Origin: an uncultured Bacteroidales bacterium
GTDB lineage: Bacteria > Bacteroidota > Bacteroidia > Bacteroidales > P3
Assembly (NCBI GenBank): GCA_905233895.1
Contig: CAJOFL010000010.1
Span: forward strand, 4,620 to 53,775
Length of the DNA stretch: 49,156 bases
Reading direction: 5' to 3'
The translations under genes were made by a program, and so were the position numbers. Within the stretch, counting starts at the first letter, position 1; each line of letters opens with the position of its first letter. This document shows, one piece after another, positions 5,393-49,156 of this stretch. Under the pieces are notes generated by a model. It ran no database searches. It was not told the origin of the DNA and saw only the letters and a program-made list of their open reading frames with translations.

Positions 5393-5485
5393 GTATAACC
5401 GCAACAATGCCAGGCGTTTAGACCCACCTTCGCCTGATCAACGCCTGATCAACGCCTGATCAACGCCTGCCTTTGTACCCCCATC
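5393..5485. repeat. Iteron element, copy 1 (11-bp direct repeats)
   Basis: Three and a half direct repeats of CGCCTGATCAA (5431-5469), each centred on the palindrome TGATCA. The flanks are shared with a second copy at 47570-47668: TATAAC then ACAATG then GTTTA, CCCACCTTCGCC before the iterons, and GCCT..CTTTG..CCATC after. The shared flanks show that this is one dispersed element and not a chance tandem repeat. Confidence 0.8.
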
Positions 5486-40489: not shown

Positions 40490-41025
40490 TCCATCACGAG
40501 GTTTTCGTCGGTGGCACCGGCAAGGATTTCAGCCAGCATCTCCTCCGGCGTGAGTTCCAGGTATTGAAGCGTGGTGCGCGTATCCTTGGCAAGGTAATGG
40601 TCGGGGTAGGTGTCGACGAAGTAGGTGTAGGCCACGCGGGCCGAATCGAACTCTTCAGCGTTCTGGTAGGCGAACCCTTTGAGGAACCAGCACCCCGCCA
40701 AATCGGCGAAATCAGGGTCTAGAGTTATGATGCTGTCCAGCACCGCCACCGCCTCGCCGTATCGTCCGGCGGTAATGCACAGGTCGGCCGTCTTCTGCAT
40801 ATACACCGCCGCCAGGCTGTCGGTCGGAAACTGGCCGTAAAACTGGCGGTAAAGGGCAATCATCCCGTCAATGGTGCTGTCGGCGCTCTCGGCGTCGAGA
40901 TAGTTGAAGTCCATCTCCAATTCGCGCTCCTCAATAATCTTCACCATCTCCTCGCGGCTCGCCTTGTGGCCGCATGCCGCCAGGAGCAGAAGGGAAAAGG
41001 CCAAAAAAGGAATCAATCTTTTCAT
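40486..41025 (-). CDS. TPR-containing lipoprotein
   Basis: 179 aa. Lipobox LLAAC, Cys18. The mature part is helical with TPR-like pairs (RYGEAVAVLDSIITLDPDFA; AEEFDSARVAYTYFVDTYPD). It resembles small envelope TPR lipoproteins but is not a clear YfiO/BamD. It overlaps def and the PPDK-like gene by 4 bases each, so it is translated with them. Function not assigned. Confidence 0.85.
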   Translation of the reverse strand: MKRLIPFLAFSLLLLAACGHKASREEMVKIIEERELEMDFNYLDAESADSTIDGMIALYRQFYGQFPTDSLAAVYMQKTADLCITAGRYGEAVAVLDSIITLDPDFADLAGCWFLKGFAYQNAEEFDSARVAYTYFVDTYPDHYLAKDTRTTLQYLELTPEEMLAEILAGATDENLVME

Positions 41026-41573
41026 TTCATCTTATATTTAGTGCGGATTTTCTTCGAAGCGATATCGTTCAGCTTGCGCTTGAGCATAGTGCGGCGCAGG
41101 TTGCTCAGCCGGTCGGTGAACACCTTGCCGTCCAGGTGGTCCACCTCGTGCTGCACCACACGGGCGTAGAGCCCCGTGGCCTCGTCCGTGTGCTCCTGCC
41201 AGTCCTCATCCCAATAGCGGACCCTCACCGTGGTCGGACGCAGCACATCCTCGTGGATGTCGGGCACCGAGAGGCAGCCCTCGTTGAACCAGTCCTTTTC
41301 CGCACCGTACTCCACAATCTCGGGGTTGACGAGGGTGTGCTCCTCGGTGGGTTCGCCGTAAGAATCCGTCTTCTCGTCGTAGGGGCGGAACCCAATGACC
41401 ACCACGCGGATGGGGAGGTCCACCTGCGGCGCCGCCAGGCCCACGCCGTCGGCGTTGTACATCGTGTCGTACATGTTCCTTACAAGCCCCTTCAGGTCGG
41501 GGTAATCCTTGTCAATCGGTTTAGCGACCTTTCTCAAAGTCGGGTGTCCGTAGCCAATAATCGGTAGTATCAT
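41022..41573 (-). CDS. def: Peptide deformylase
   Basis: 183 aa. Removes the formyl group from new proteins. All three motifs are present: GVGLAAPQ, EGCLSVP with metal ligand Cys100, and QHEVDHLDG with His142, Glu143 and His146. The N-terminus MILPIIGYGHPTLRKVA is the usual start. Separated from ruvX by 34 bases that belong to the AGTCTACA-type repeat; overlaps the TPR lipoprotein by 4 bases. Confidence 0.97.
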   Translation of the reverse strand: MILPIIGYGHPTLRKVAKPIDKDYPDLKGLVRNMYDTMYNADGVGLAAPQVDLPIRVVVIGFRPYDEKTDSYGEPTEEHTLVNPEIVEYGAEKDWFNEGCLSVPDIHEDVLRPTTVRVRYWDEDWQEHTDEATGLYARVVQHEVDHLDGKVFTDRLSNLRRTMLKRKLNDIASKKIRTKYKMK

Positions 41574-41588
41574 ATCTCTTTTATTGTT

Positions 41589-41660
41589 GAGTCTATAAGT
41601 CTACGAGTCAACGAGTCCTTGTGCCCCGTCGGCTTGTAGACTTGTCGACTTGTTGACTTC
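41589..41660. repeat. Inverted 8-bp-period array (AGTCTACA type) across the ruvX stop
   Basis: One arm of AGTCTATA/AGTCTACG/AGTCAACG units (41589-41617) and an opposite arm of TTGTAGAC/TTGTCGAC/TTGTTGAC units (41634-41658) flank a G/C-rich centre. It covers the last 17 or so codons of ruvX, its stop (41608-41610) and part of the spacer to def. Same family as the Rho linker. Confidence 0.8.
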
Positions 41661-42060
41661 TCATAAAATCTTGCAGCATGATCGTGGCGGCAATCTGGTC
41701 AACCATGCCCTTGTCGCGGCGCTCCTTCCTGCGCAGGCCGCTGTCAATCATCGTCTGGAAAGCCATCTTCGAAGTGAAACGCTCGTCGATGCGGGCCACC
41801 TCCTTGCCGGGGAACGCCACCCGCAGGGCATCGACAAACGGCTCGATCAGAGCCGCCGACTCGCTCGGCGAGCCGTCGAGCCTCCGCGCCTCGCCCACCA
41901 CGAAAAGGTCCACCTCCTCACGCGCGCAGTAATCGCGTATAAACTGCATCACGCGCGGCGTCTCCACCGTGGCGAGGGCCGTGGCGATAATGCGGACGGG
42001 GTCGGTCACCGCCAACCCCGTCCGTTTCCTTCCATAGTCTATGGCCATCAATCTTCCCAT
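41608..42060 (-). CDS. ruvX: Holliday junction resolvase-like protein / pre-16S rRNA nuclease YqgF
   Basis: 150 aa with an RNase H-like fold. MGRLMAIDYGRKRTGLAVTD carries the first catalytic Asp, FVVGEARRLDG the second strand, RIDERFTSKMA the Glu, and KGMVDQIAATIMLQDF the last Asp. The family matures the 5' end of 16S rRNA. The frame continues upstream to 42090, but that would run into the tRNA; the ATG at 42060 is 6 bases after the tRNA end. The C-terminal tail (about 16 residues, SQQVDKSTSRRGTRTR) is encoded by a spacer repeat and is not part of the conserved fold. Confidence 0.94.
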   Translation of the reverse strand: MGRLMAIDYGRKRTGLAVTDPVRIIATALATVETPRVMQFIRDYCAREEVDLFVVGEARRLDGSPSESAALIEPFVDALRVAFPGKEVARIDERFTSKMAFQTMIDSGLRRKERRDKGMVDQIAATIMLQDFMRSQQVDKSTSRRGTRTR

Positions 42061-42066
42061 ACCCTG

Positions 42067-42140
42067 TGGCCCCTCTCGGGTTCGAACCAAGGACCCGCTG
42101 ATTATGAGTCAGCTGCTCTAACCAACTGAGCTAAGGGGCC
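42067..42140 (-). tRNA. tRNA with anticodon CAT (elongator Met, or Ile2 after lysidine modification)
   Basis: 74 bases. Acceptor GGCCCCT pairs with AGGGGCC, the D-arm is AGCTCAGTTGGTTAGAGC, the anticodon stem is GCTGA/TCAGC with loop CTCATAA (anticodon CAT at 42104-42106), and the T-arm has GGTTCGAACC. Discriminator A; CCA is not encoded. It is not initiator tRNA. The GGCCCCT acceptor is also that of the E. coli Ile2 (CAT) tRNA, so charging with Met or Ile cannot be decided by eye. ruvX starts 6 bases downstream on the same strand. Confidence 0.95.
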
Positions 42141-47569: not shown

Positions 47570-47668
47570 TAACATCCTAGTTCACAATGTGTTTACCCCA
47601 CCTTCGCCTGATCAACGCCTGATCAACGCCTGATCAACGCCTGATCAACGCCTACTTTGGGATACCAT
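47570..47668. repeat. Iteron element, copy 2 (11-bp direct repeats)
   Basis: Four and a half direct repeats of CGCCTGATCAA (47605-47653) with the same flanks as the copy at 5393-5485: TATAAC, ACAATG, GTTTA, CCCCACCTTCGCC before, and GCCT.CTTTGG.ATACCATC after. One repeat more than copy 1. Confidence 0.8.
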
Positions 47669-48340: not shown

Positions 48341-48412
48341 CGTCGTCAAAATGTCAGGGGGCTTTCCCGCACGGTTTGCGCTATCTGCCTGACTTTCAAT
48401 CCCAAGGAACCA

Positions 48413-48469
48413 ATGTATCAACATATCAAACGTATCAACTTATAAACGTATTAACGTATAAACGATTTA
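48413..48469. repeat. 8-bp tandem leader repeat (CGTATAAA type) before rho
   Basis: Six or seven units such as TGTATCAA, CATATCAA, CGTATCAA, CTTATAAA, CGTATTAA, CGTATAAA end at the ATG of rho. A shorter array of the same type precedes the 14961 gene. Confidence 0.8.
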
Positions 48470-49156
48470 ATGTACAGCAAATCTGAACTTACCGCCAAGG
48501 CCCATATCGAGCTGATGGATATTGCAGAGAGGATGGGCATTGCGAAGGCCAAGCGCATGGATGCGCAGGAGCTTGTCTACAAGATTCTCGACCACCAGGC
48601 CGCCAACCCCGAGAGCGTCGACAAGTCGACGAGTCTACAAGTCAAAGAGTCTACAAGTCAAAGAGTCAACAAGTCAACAAGTCGACAAGACGATGGGCCG
48701 GACGCCTCGTTGACTCGTAGACCCGTAGACTCGCAGACTTCCACCGAGCCGAAGGGGCGCCGCCAGCACATGAAGCCGCGCCTGTTGGCCGAGTCGGGGA
48801 TGAATAATCCCGAAATCCATCGCCGCAACCCGAAGGAGAAGAGTCTACAAGGCGAAGAGCCAAAGAGTCAACAAGTCAACGAGTCTACAAGTCTACAAGG
48901 CGAGGGGTTCGATATCCGCGATTTTGTGATGCCCGAGGTGCCTACGGTGCCCGATGTCCTGGCCCCCAACGGGAAACTGATTCTTCGTACGAGTCTACAA
49001 GTCAAAGAGTCAAAGAGTCAACAAGTCAACGAGTCGACAAGTCTACAAGCCGAGGGGCCGGACGCCTCGTTGACTCGTGGACCCGTAGACTCGCAGACTC
49101 CTGCGGAGCCGGACGCCTCGTTGACTCGTAGACCCGTAGACTCGCAGACTCCTGAG
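48470..49156 (+). CDS. rho: Transcription termination factor Rho, N-terminal part (runs off the window)
   Basis: 229 codons are open to the window end. Residues 1-47 match the Rho N-terminal helical domain (TAKAHIELMDIAERMGIAKA; ELVYKILDHQA). The rest is a disordered linker rich in Ser, Gln, Glu, Thr and Asp; the RNA-binding and ATPase domains should follow outside. The linker is built from repeat DNA: a 37-aa module starting TSLQVKES and ending PVDSQT occurs at 48629-48739 and, exactly 360 bases on, at 48989-49099, with partial copies at 48840-48900 and 49109-49150. Long linkers in Bacteroidota Rho are known; one made of dispersed spacer repeats is unusual. The Rho call rests on the short N-terminal domain. 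Confidence 0.82.
   Translation, partial: MYSKSELTAKAHIELMDIAERMGIAKAKRMDAQELVYKILDHQAANPESVDKSTSLQVKESTSQRVNKSTSRQDDGPDASLTRRPVDSQTSTEPKGRRQHMKPRLLAESGMNNPEIHRRNPKEKSLQGEEPKSQQVNESTSLQGEGFDIRDFVMPEVPTVPDVLAPNGKLILRTSLQVKESKSQQVNESTSLQAEGPDASLTRGPVDSQTPAEPDASLTRRPVDSQTPE
48629..49150. repeat. Coding repeat modules of the Rho linker (AGTCTACA type)
   Basis: Each module has a forward arm of 8-bp units (AGTCTACA, AGTCAAAG, AGTCAACA, AGTCGACA) and a reverse arm that is roughly its complement (TTGACTCG, TAGACCCG, TAGACTCG). The 42-bp reverse arm starts at 48698, 49058 and 49109; the spacings of 360 and 51 keep the reading frame. Copy two differs from the others by one base. Confidence 0.85.

Follow-up and report, generated by a model that had tools for sequence, protein, structure and literature searches.

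The rho locus

The window analyzed here, a stretch of 49,156 nucleotides from the genome of an uncultured gut-type Bacteroidales bacterium, ends together with contig C10 (53,775 bp), which stops inside repeats. The reading frame at this end (48470-49156, plus strand) is open and continues past the last base of the window; it is the N-terminal part of rho, cut by the end of the contig (Table 1). Beyond the first 47 residues, the linker is encoded in part by octamers of the form AGTCNAMR, which make up both forward and reverse-complement arms. The window contains the double octamer AGTCNAMR-AGTCNAMR at 19 places, 16 of them in rho and 3 at 41598-41658, compared with none in any of 100 dinucleotide shuffles of the window, which confirms the repeat reported in a preliminary description of this DNA. 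The claim that the frame consists largely of such units has to be scaled down: octamers are indeed present but, with 34 units, cover only about half of the linker part that lies in the window (272 of 546 bases). Three further details were reproduced: the recurrence of a 111-bp module (48629-48739) at 48989-49099, 360 bp away and in frame, with identity at 100 of 111 bases; the third occurrence of the 42-bp reverse arm at 49109, where 42 of 42 bases are the same as in element A; and a copy outside rho at an ORF that had been called ruvX, where the repeat forms the C-terminal tail of ORF 41608-42090 and lies 17 bases short of the next ORF (41022-41573). The two conserved linker motifs that sit between the octamer elements had gone unmentioned. 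Directly upstream of the rho start codon (48411-48464), the window contains a degenerate 8-bp repeat of the CAACGTAT type.

Table 1. Features of the rho frame and of the octamer copy outside it (window coordinates).
Feature	Position	Strand	Details
Rho N-terminal domain, 47 residues	48470..48610	+	ORF; 41/47 residues identical in P0242
Octamer element A	48624..48739	+	Forward arm 48624-48687 (8 units), loop 48688-48707, reverse arm 48708-48739 (4 units); fold z -5.3
Conserved linker motif 1 (GRRQHMKPRLLAESGMNNPEIHRRN)	48755..48829	+	Strict pattern in 21/26 parsed Rho linkers, own included
Octamer element B	48842..48897	+	Forward arm only, 7 units; absent from the preliminary description
Conserved linker motif 2 (FDIRDFVMPEVPTVPDVLAPNGKLIL)	48908..48985	+	Strict pattern in 22/26 parsed linkers, own included
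Octamer element C	48992..49099	+	Forward arm 48992-49047 (7 units), loop 49048-49067, reverse arm 49068-49099 (4 units); fold z -3.6
Third copy of 42-bp loop edge and reverse arm	49109..49150	+	Units 49119-49150; contig breaks just behind
Contig end	49151..49156	+	Last codon E, vs A in full-length Rho P0241
Copy outside rho, tail RSQQVDKSTSRRGTRTR	41590..41658	-	In frame in ORF 41608-42090; z -5.0

A protein search with the window residues identified a full-length Rho of 674 residues (P0241), encoded on a separate 93,251-bp contig, that begins exactly as window residues 1-228 do and ends exactly as do the 323 residues encoded from the start of contig C12 of this genome. Motif 3 (KRKRGRPRKN) lies within the 123 residues between these two parts, and the RNA-binding domain of P0241 is preceded by a fourth octamer-type peptide. 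Because the only match to the Rho RNA-binding domain in this genome is on C12, P0241 appears to come from another assembly, perhaps of the same sample. The RuvC protein with its insert (see below) is likewise listed, in identical form, on 7 contigs, the longest of which has the 88,009 bp of contig C8 of this genome.

A dispersed family of octamer hairpins

The octamer repeat is not special to rho: it is found in frame in ten other ORFs. The 11 carriers are rho, ruvC, valS (at 2 sites), folC, rnr, MtaB-like and mazG-like genes, a flippase gene, a DUF349 gene, the gene for a 320-residue protein and, weakly, a GDSL gene. Arms also lie between genes, at about nine of the places examined outside these 11 ORFs, as assigned by ORF layout, with two additional places that have two units only. 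The genome search with the 111-bp module proposed in the preliminary description yielded 47 BLAST matches in the 2.34-Mb genome at E <=10 and 37 at E <=0.001, 4 of the latter in rho (places matching on both strands are counted twice in these numbers). With up to one mismatch allowed, AGTCTACAAGTC has 87 sites, including those in rho, vs 5 for the reversed pattern.

The family is concentrated in this genome (G000), where a strict 20-mer has 48 sites, rho included; the other 119 genomes of the genus that were examined have a single site, in one genome, and the other 392 genomes of a 393-genome sample of the order have none. A related 24-mer, however, retrieved 94 stretches in named genomes, most of them from other Bacteroidales and a single Phycisphaerales genome and the rest scattered. 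Similar arrays thus occur sporadically in other taxa, and the family is not confined to this genus. A literature search, with most subscription journals outside its reach, found no description of octamers of this type in Bacteroidales or in Rho.

The two arms have a fixed order. Wherever opposite arms are adjacent, that is, no more than 60 bases apart, the AGTC-type arm precedes the GACT-type arm. This holds for all 15 such pairs in this genome (19 loci) and for all 21 among 80 loci of other genomes, including five in the one Phycisphaerales genome; none of the 36 is GACT-first. The cases are partly dependent, in that L142 and L159 appear to represent one site in related genomes. Such fixed polarity is consistent with an element that is inherited or copied, and independent slippage would hardly produce it. 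Seven of seven hand-chosen elements, six from this genome and one from Phycisphaerales, are predicted to fold as hairpins (z from -3.6 to -7.8). Long runs of the octamer type were also observed at L103, L113, L130 and L148, in unrelated genomes (Spirochaetia, Saprospiraceae, Pseudomonas and Agromyces); in these, the opposite arm is more than 60 bases away or absent.

Reading frames and constraint

A unit of 8 bp combined with the 3-bp code has a period of 24 bp, or 8 codons, and therefore the common forward units encode the same polar peptide in any frame, a stop-free 8-residue repeat of the STSLQVNE type in all three. The common reverse units (TGTAGACT or TGTTGACT), by contrast, reach TAG or TGA within three units. 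From the sequence of these units, it follows that reverse arms should survive in genes only in a changed form, often with CAG in place of TAG; the variant AGTCTGCG, with CAG on the coding strand, accounts for 8 of the 28 reverse units in genes vs 2 of 114 units outside. These 114 outside units pool both arms and include a few from two weak arms in the window and from the tail at 41590-41658. The 11 ORFs contain 120 units (92 forward and 28 reverse) with no in-frame stop, whereas units redrawn from the outside pool yielded a mean of 11.9 stops and not one stop-free set in 20,000 draws, a deficit that measures constraint rather than rate and is in part due to ascertainment because the ORFs were picked for being open.

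The Rho linker in related bacteria

We fetched 29 Rho loci from genus relatives, one locus each among the matches listed, and parsed 25 of these (all except L079, L091, L092 and L093). The relatives share a layout that consists of the N-terminal domain, the motifs RQHMKPxLLAES, MPxVPxVP and KRGRP, the RNA-binding domain and the ATPase core; by strict patterns, the three linker motifs were detected in 20, 21 and 22 of the 25 parsed relatives. The octamer pair is absent from 27 of the 29 genus loci fetched among the matches listed; L075 has one pair, and L092 has two by a loose pattern. The 13 Rho loci that could be parsed among 23 from other octamer carriers (10 unparsed) have none. The second-ranked database match, P0242, is nearly identical to this Rho in the core (360 of 370 residues) and far less so in the linker (134 of 229 aligned residues), the spacers of which contain octamer-type peptides, as judged by eye from the protein.

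Given that relatives possess a motif-bearing linker mostly free of octamers, the Rho linker is no invader. It is old, the octamer filling is new, and the repeat occupies the variable spacers between the conserved motifs. The earlier proposal that a dispersed spacer repeat entered an essential gene and was kept as a linker is accordingly divided: the family is dispersed, and within rho the frame is open with signs of constraint, but the repeat did not create the linker. The opposite outcome raised there, relatives with the same linker but no such repeat DNA elsewhere, did not appear, as repeat DNA is present elsewhere in the genome.

The Rho of Bacteroides thetaiotaomicron (BtRho) provides a comparison, by sequence layout. 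In PMC13269538, BtRho is described as having variable stretches around short conserved motifs; in Bacteroides Rho, the length and overall sequence of the disordered region are not conserved, with the exception of short stretches, and short specific sequences control condensation; the amino-acid content of its subdomains is conserved, and deletion of a whole subdomain changes condensation. The Rho linker analyzed here is alike in that short conserved motifs lie amid stretches of variable length, with motifs 1 and 2 in the window and motif 3 in P0241; unlike BtRho, it is filled by a genome-wide DNA repeat. By analogy, the lack of conservation in length and overall sequence, together with the short control sequences, would fit the view that the octamers are filler, whereas the conserved amino-acid content would speak against wholly free spacers.

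This comparison bears on the possibility that the filling represents adaptive tuning of Rho condensation, such that Ser/Thr-rich spacers alter the phase behavior of the linker. The composition of the linker part in the window is compatible with such a role, its Ser+Thr fraction (0.21) being above the range of the 25 parsed relatives (0.04-0.17) and its Ala+Pro fraction (0.13) below it (0.15-0.37), and the disordered region of BtRho does control condensation (PMC13269538). However, the charge fractions fall inside the range of the relatives, the same filler is present in unrelated enzymes, and the control sequences mentioned in the abstract of that study are short and specific, so that we consider adaptive tuning unlikely, even if it is the strongest of the alternatives. 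More probably, the conserved motifs do the work in Rho, and the repeats are a tolerated spacer.

Loops of other proteins and the repeat words of relatives

In the folded proteins, the repeats map to loops that could be compared with those of relatives (the comparison leaves out valS of G075, which was unparsed, and ruvC of G015, which had no match). The ruvC loop spans 37 residues vs 10-21 in 7 relatives, and valS loop 2 has 27 residues vs 19 in all 7 relatives compared. Because the sequence common to the relatives is gone, both look like replacements, and no target duplication was seen at the compared sites. The other two loops stand out less in length: valS loop 1 (27 residues) lies within the range of 16-38 in 7 relatives and equals that of G068 (27), whereas rnr loop 1 (18 residues vs 14-19 in 8 relatives) is 3-4 residues longer than in 6 of the 8, the same as in G056 and shorter than in G015. 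At these two loops, gradual divergence is possible given the similar lengths in some relatives. Structure prediction for RuvC from 8 sequences gave a mean pLDDT of 44.7, too low for the model to be of use.

Some of the relatives carry other tandem words at the same loops: the rnr loop contains AGTGGAA units in G056 and AATT(G/A)AA units in G015, and the ruvC loop of G002 contains CACTCAGT units; no tandem word was found at the compared loops of the other relatives. The short-period words (7-11 bp) in seven genomes, each sampled over about 100 kb or more, are largely different. We asked whether each species fills its genes with its own dialect, by comparing 9-mer matches to the words of the same genome with those to six foreign word sets. 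The answer is clear for G000, with 68 own-word matches in rho, 22 in valS, 19 in ruvC and 9 in rnr against foreign maxima of 2, 5, 2 and 5, respectively. In G002, own words exceed all six foreign sets in ruvC (35 matches, many upstream of the start codon) and rnr (33, the highest foreign value being 16). In rho and valS of G068, the own set likewise gives the most matches (4 and 5, respectively), an excess that says little because valS of four other species has 4-8 matches to the G068 set. Other results are contrary to the idea: valS of G002 has 0 own matches and 23 to the G056 set, rho of G056 has 0 own and 13 to the G002 set, rnr of G056 has 25 own vs 27 to the G068 set, and rnr of G015 has 7 own vs 12 to the G002 set. 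Neither G015 nor G036 nor G029 shows an own-word excess in any gene compared. The dialect idea is thus only partly supported, being clear for G000 and for two genes of G002 and weak or contradicted in the other five genomes. We tentatively suggest, at somewhat less than even odds, that loops and spacers of essential proteins in this genus are repeatedly overwritten by whichever word is currently amplifying, species-specific in each case (AGTCAACA here, heptamers or other words in relatives), with the octamer hairpin recurring in distant phyla by transfer or because a shared mechanism generates it.

Several additional repeats were observed in these genomes. In G002, heptamer-like words of the TCATTCATCACTCA type reach the ruvC start codon (L281). 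A second dispersed family of this genome is built from the 11-bp unit CTGATCAACGC, repeated about 3-4 times per array (window 5434-5466 and 47608-47651; L312-L316 on contig C1), and several arrays are preceded by the same leader, CCCACCTTCG. In G029, four near-identical hairpins occur within 100 kb (L307:7500-7592, L308:1418-1510, L308:6614-6706 and L309:18824-18916), with arms of about four 11-bp units (TGTTCTTCGAT / ATCGAAGAACA), loops of roughly five bases and ends that mostly read CCGTC...GACGG; this hairpin looks like a recently copied element.

Origin and spread of the repeat

Taken together, the observations are best accounted for by a multiplied octamer element that replaced or lengthened stretches tolerant of change, a reading to which we assign a probability of roughly 0.75. 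The element would be a dispersed hairpin of tandem octamers, with a 5' arm of the AGTC type, a short loop and a 3' arm of the GACT type, that multiplied in this species and, judging from the Rho peptides of P0242, probably in a near relative. Its copies would have taken over DNA between genes, loops in folded proteins and, in the Rho linker, the spacers that separate the motifs, with slippage altering the number of units afterwards. The route of spread is the weakest part of this scheme: the hairpin may have been copied ectopically during repair, or a trans-acting enzyme may have been involved. We prefer ectopic copying, as a working idea that may well prove wrong.

An alternative with respect to origin holds that the repeats arose within rho by slippage and unequal recombination and were selected as a linker, the copies elsewhere being coincidental or later. 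Tandem units and a 111-bp duplication within rho are what such a process would leave behind, and the linkers of relatives also differ in length and composition. Nevertheless, intergenic DNA and ten other ORFs contain the same hairpins, the two arms have one polarity, and modules A and C are near copies with motifs 1 and 2 and element B lying between them, which favors copying of the element itself; an origin by slippage in rho consequently appears improbable, slightly more so than adaptive tuning.

Enzymes known to mobilize or synthesize repeats were sought as well. No Y1 transposase match was found in this genome; 8 of 17 genomes had matches, 7 of these over the cut-off, and only 1 of 17 Y1 loci (L337, in G103, itself an octamer carrier) has octamer pairs. 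RVT_1 matches were found in 5 of 8 genomes tested, including one in this genome, and there are no octamers within about 1.5 kb of the latter. RAYT/IS200 elements and reverse transcriptases as sources of the repeat are accordingly without support. One reverse transcriptase ORF of this genome (L329, contig C3, ~135354-135905; 376 residues) is located between two other ORFs.

A more specific variant of the enzymatic origin is that a telomerase-like reverse transcriptase of the DRT10 type, with a non-coding RNA template, produces the words and that these are subsequently captured at breaks. As described in PMC12632851, DRT10 consists of a reverse transcriptase, a non-coding RNA template bearing the repeat and a SLATT protein, and makes tandem-repeat cDNA, with a 9-nt period in one studied system; the words of this genus, at 7-11 bp, differ between the sampled species. 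Set against this, G002, the sample of which gave the most tandem arrays, has no RVT_1 match, and the single RVT_1 match of G000 lacks octamers nearby, leaving this proposal with very little credibility.

Finally, that the rho repeats are an assembly artefact is unlikely, and a duplication of the module produced at the contig end is the least credible alternative of all (the preliminary description had raised assembly duplication as a caution): although C10 breaks off within the repeat and the last codon there is not the one expected from P0241, the two 111-bp modules differ at 11 bases, and the separate contig encoding P0241 has the same linker, with agreement at 228 window residues and all 323 residues of C12.

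Comparison with known systems and implications

By description, the closest counterparts in behavior are the Rickettsia palindromic elements (RPE), whereas dispersed heptamers are closest in make-up. RPE are palindromic dispersed repeats that are found in frame in unrelated protein genes, to which they add a peptide (PMC10969869, which cites Ogata 2000 and 2002 for these elements). Like RPE, the octamer element is palindromic, dispersed and in frame inside ORFs. Unlike RPE, which are defined elements, about 150 bp long, that encode a conserved peptide (PMC10969869), the octamer copies vary in unit number and loop, have no fixed ends that we could see, change loops rather than insert cleanly, and occupy several spacers of one disordered linker.

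The dispersed heptamers include TAACTGA in Beggiatoaceae and others, GGGAATC in Xanthomonas and related units in Nostoc; some fall within ORFs, for example in a surface loop of an RNA polymerase beta-prime-like protein, but they are described mainly as direct repeats between genes, and forward TAACTGA closes all frames (PMC4679880, PMC4692102). The octamers resemble them in the short unit, the short arrays scattered over the genome and the scattered taxonomic distribution; they differ in being palindromes of one polarity with many in-frame copies in essential genes. REPINs are associated with RAYT, that is, Y1 (TnpA_REP-like) transposases, for which this genome has no match. The likeness to REPINs is that these, too, are short dispersed hairpins (PMC3116915).

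Rickettsia provides the best-known examples of dispersed palindromes that proteins have captured in frame. What is unusual in the present case is that mobile-looking DNA has become part of core proteins, Rho and other essential ones, without breaking them. A repeat that is stop-free in every frame fills the spacers of Rho while the motifs stay, and this amounts to a natural experiment on what matters in the linker. The analysis offers a testable genus-wide model for the origin of disordered spacer and loop sequences, which predicts that essential proteins would change fast from strain to strain.
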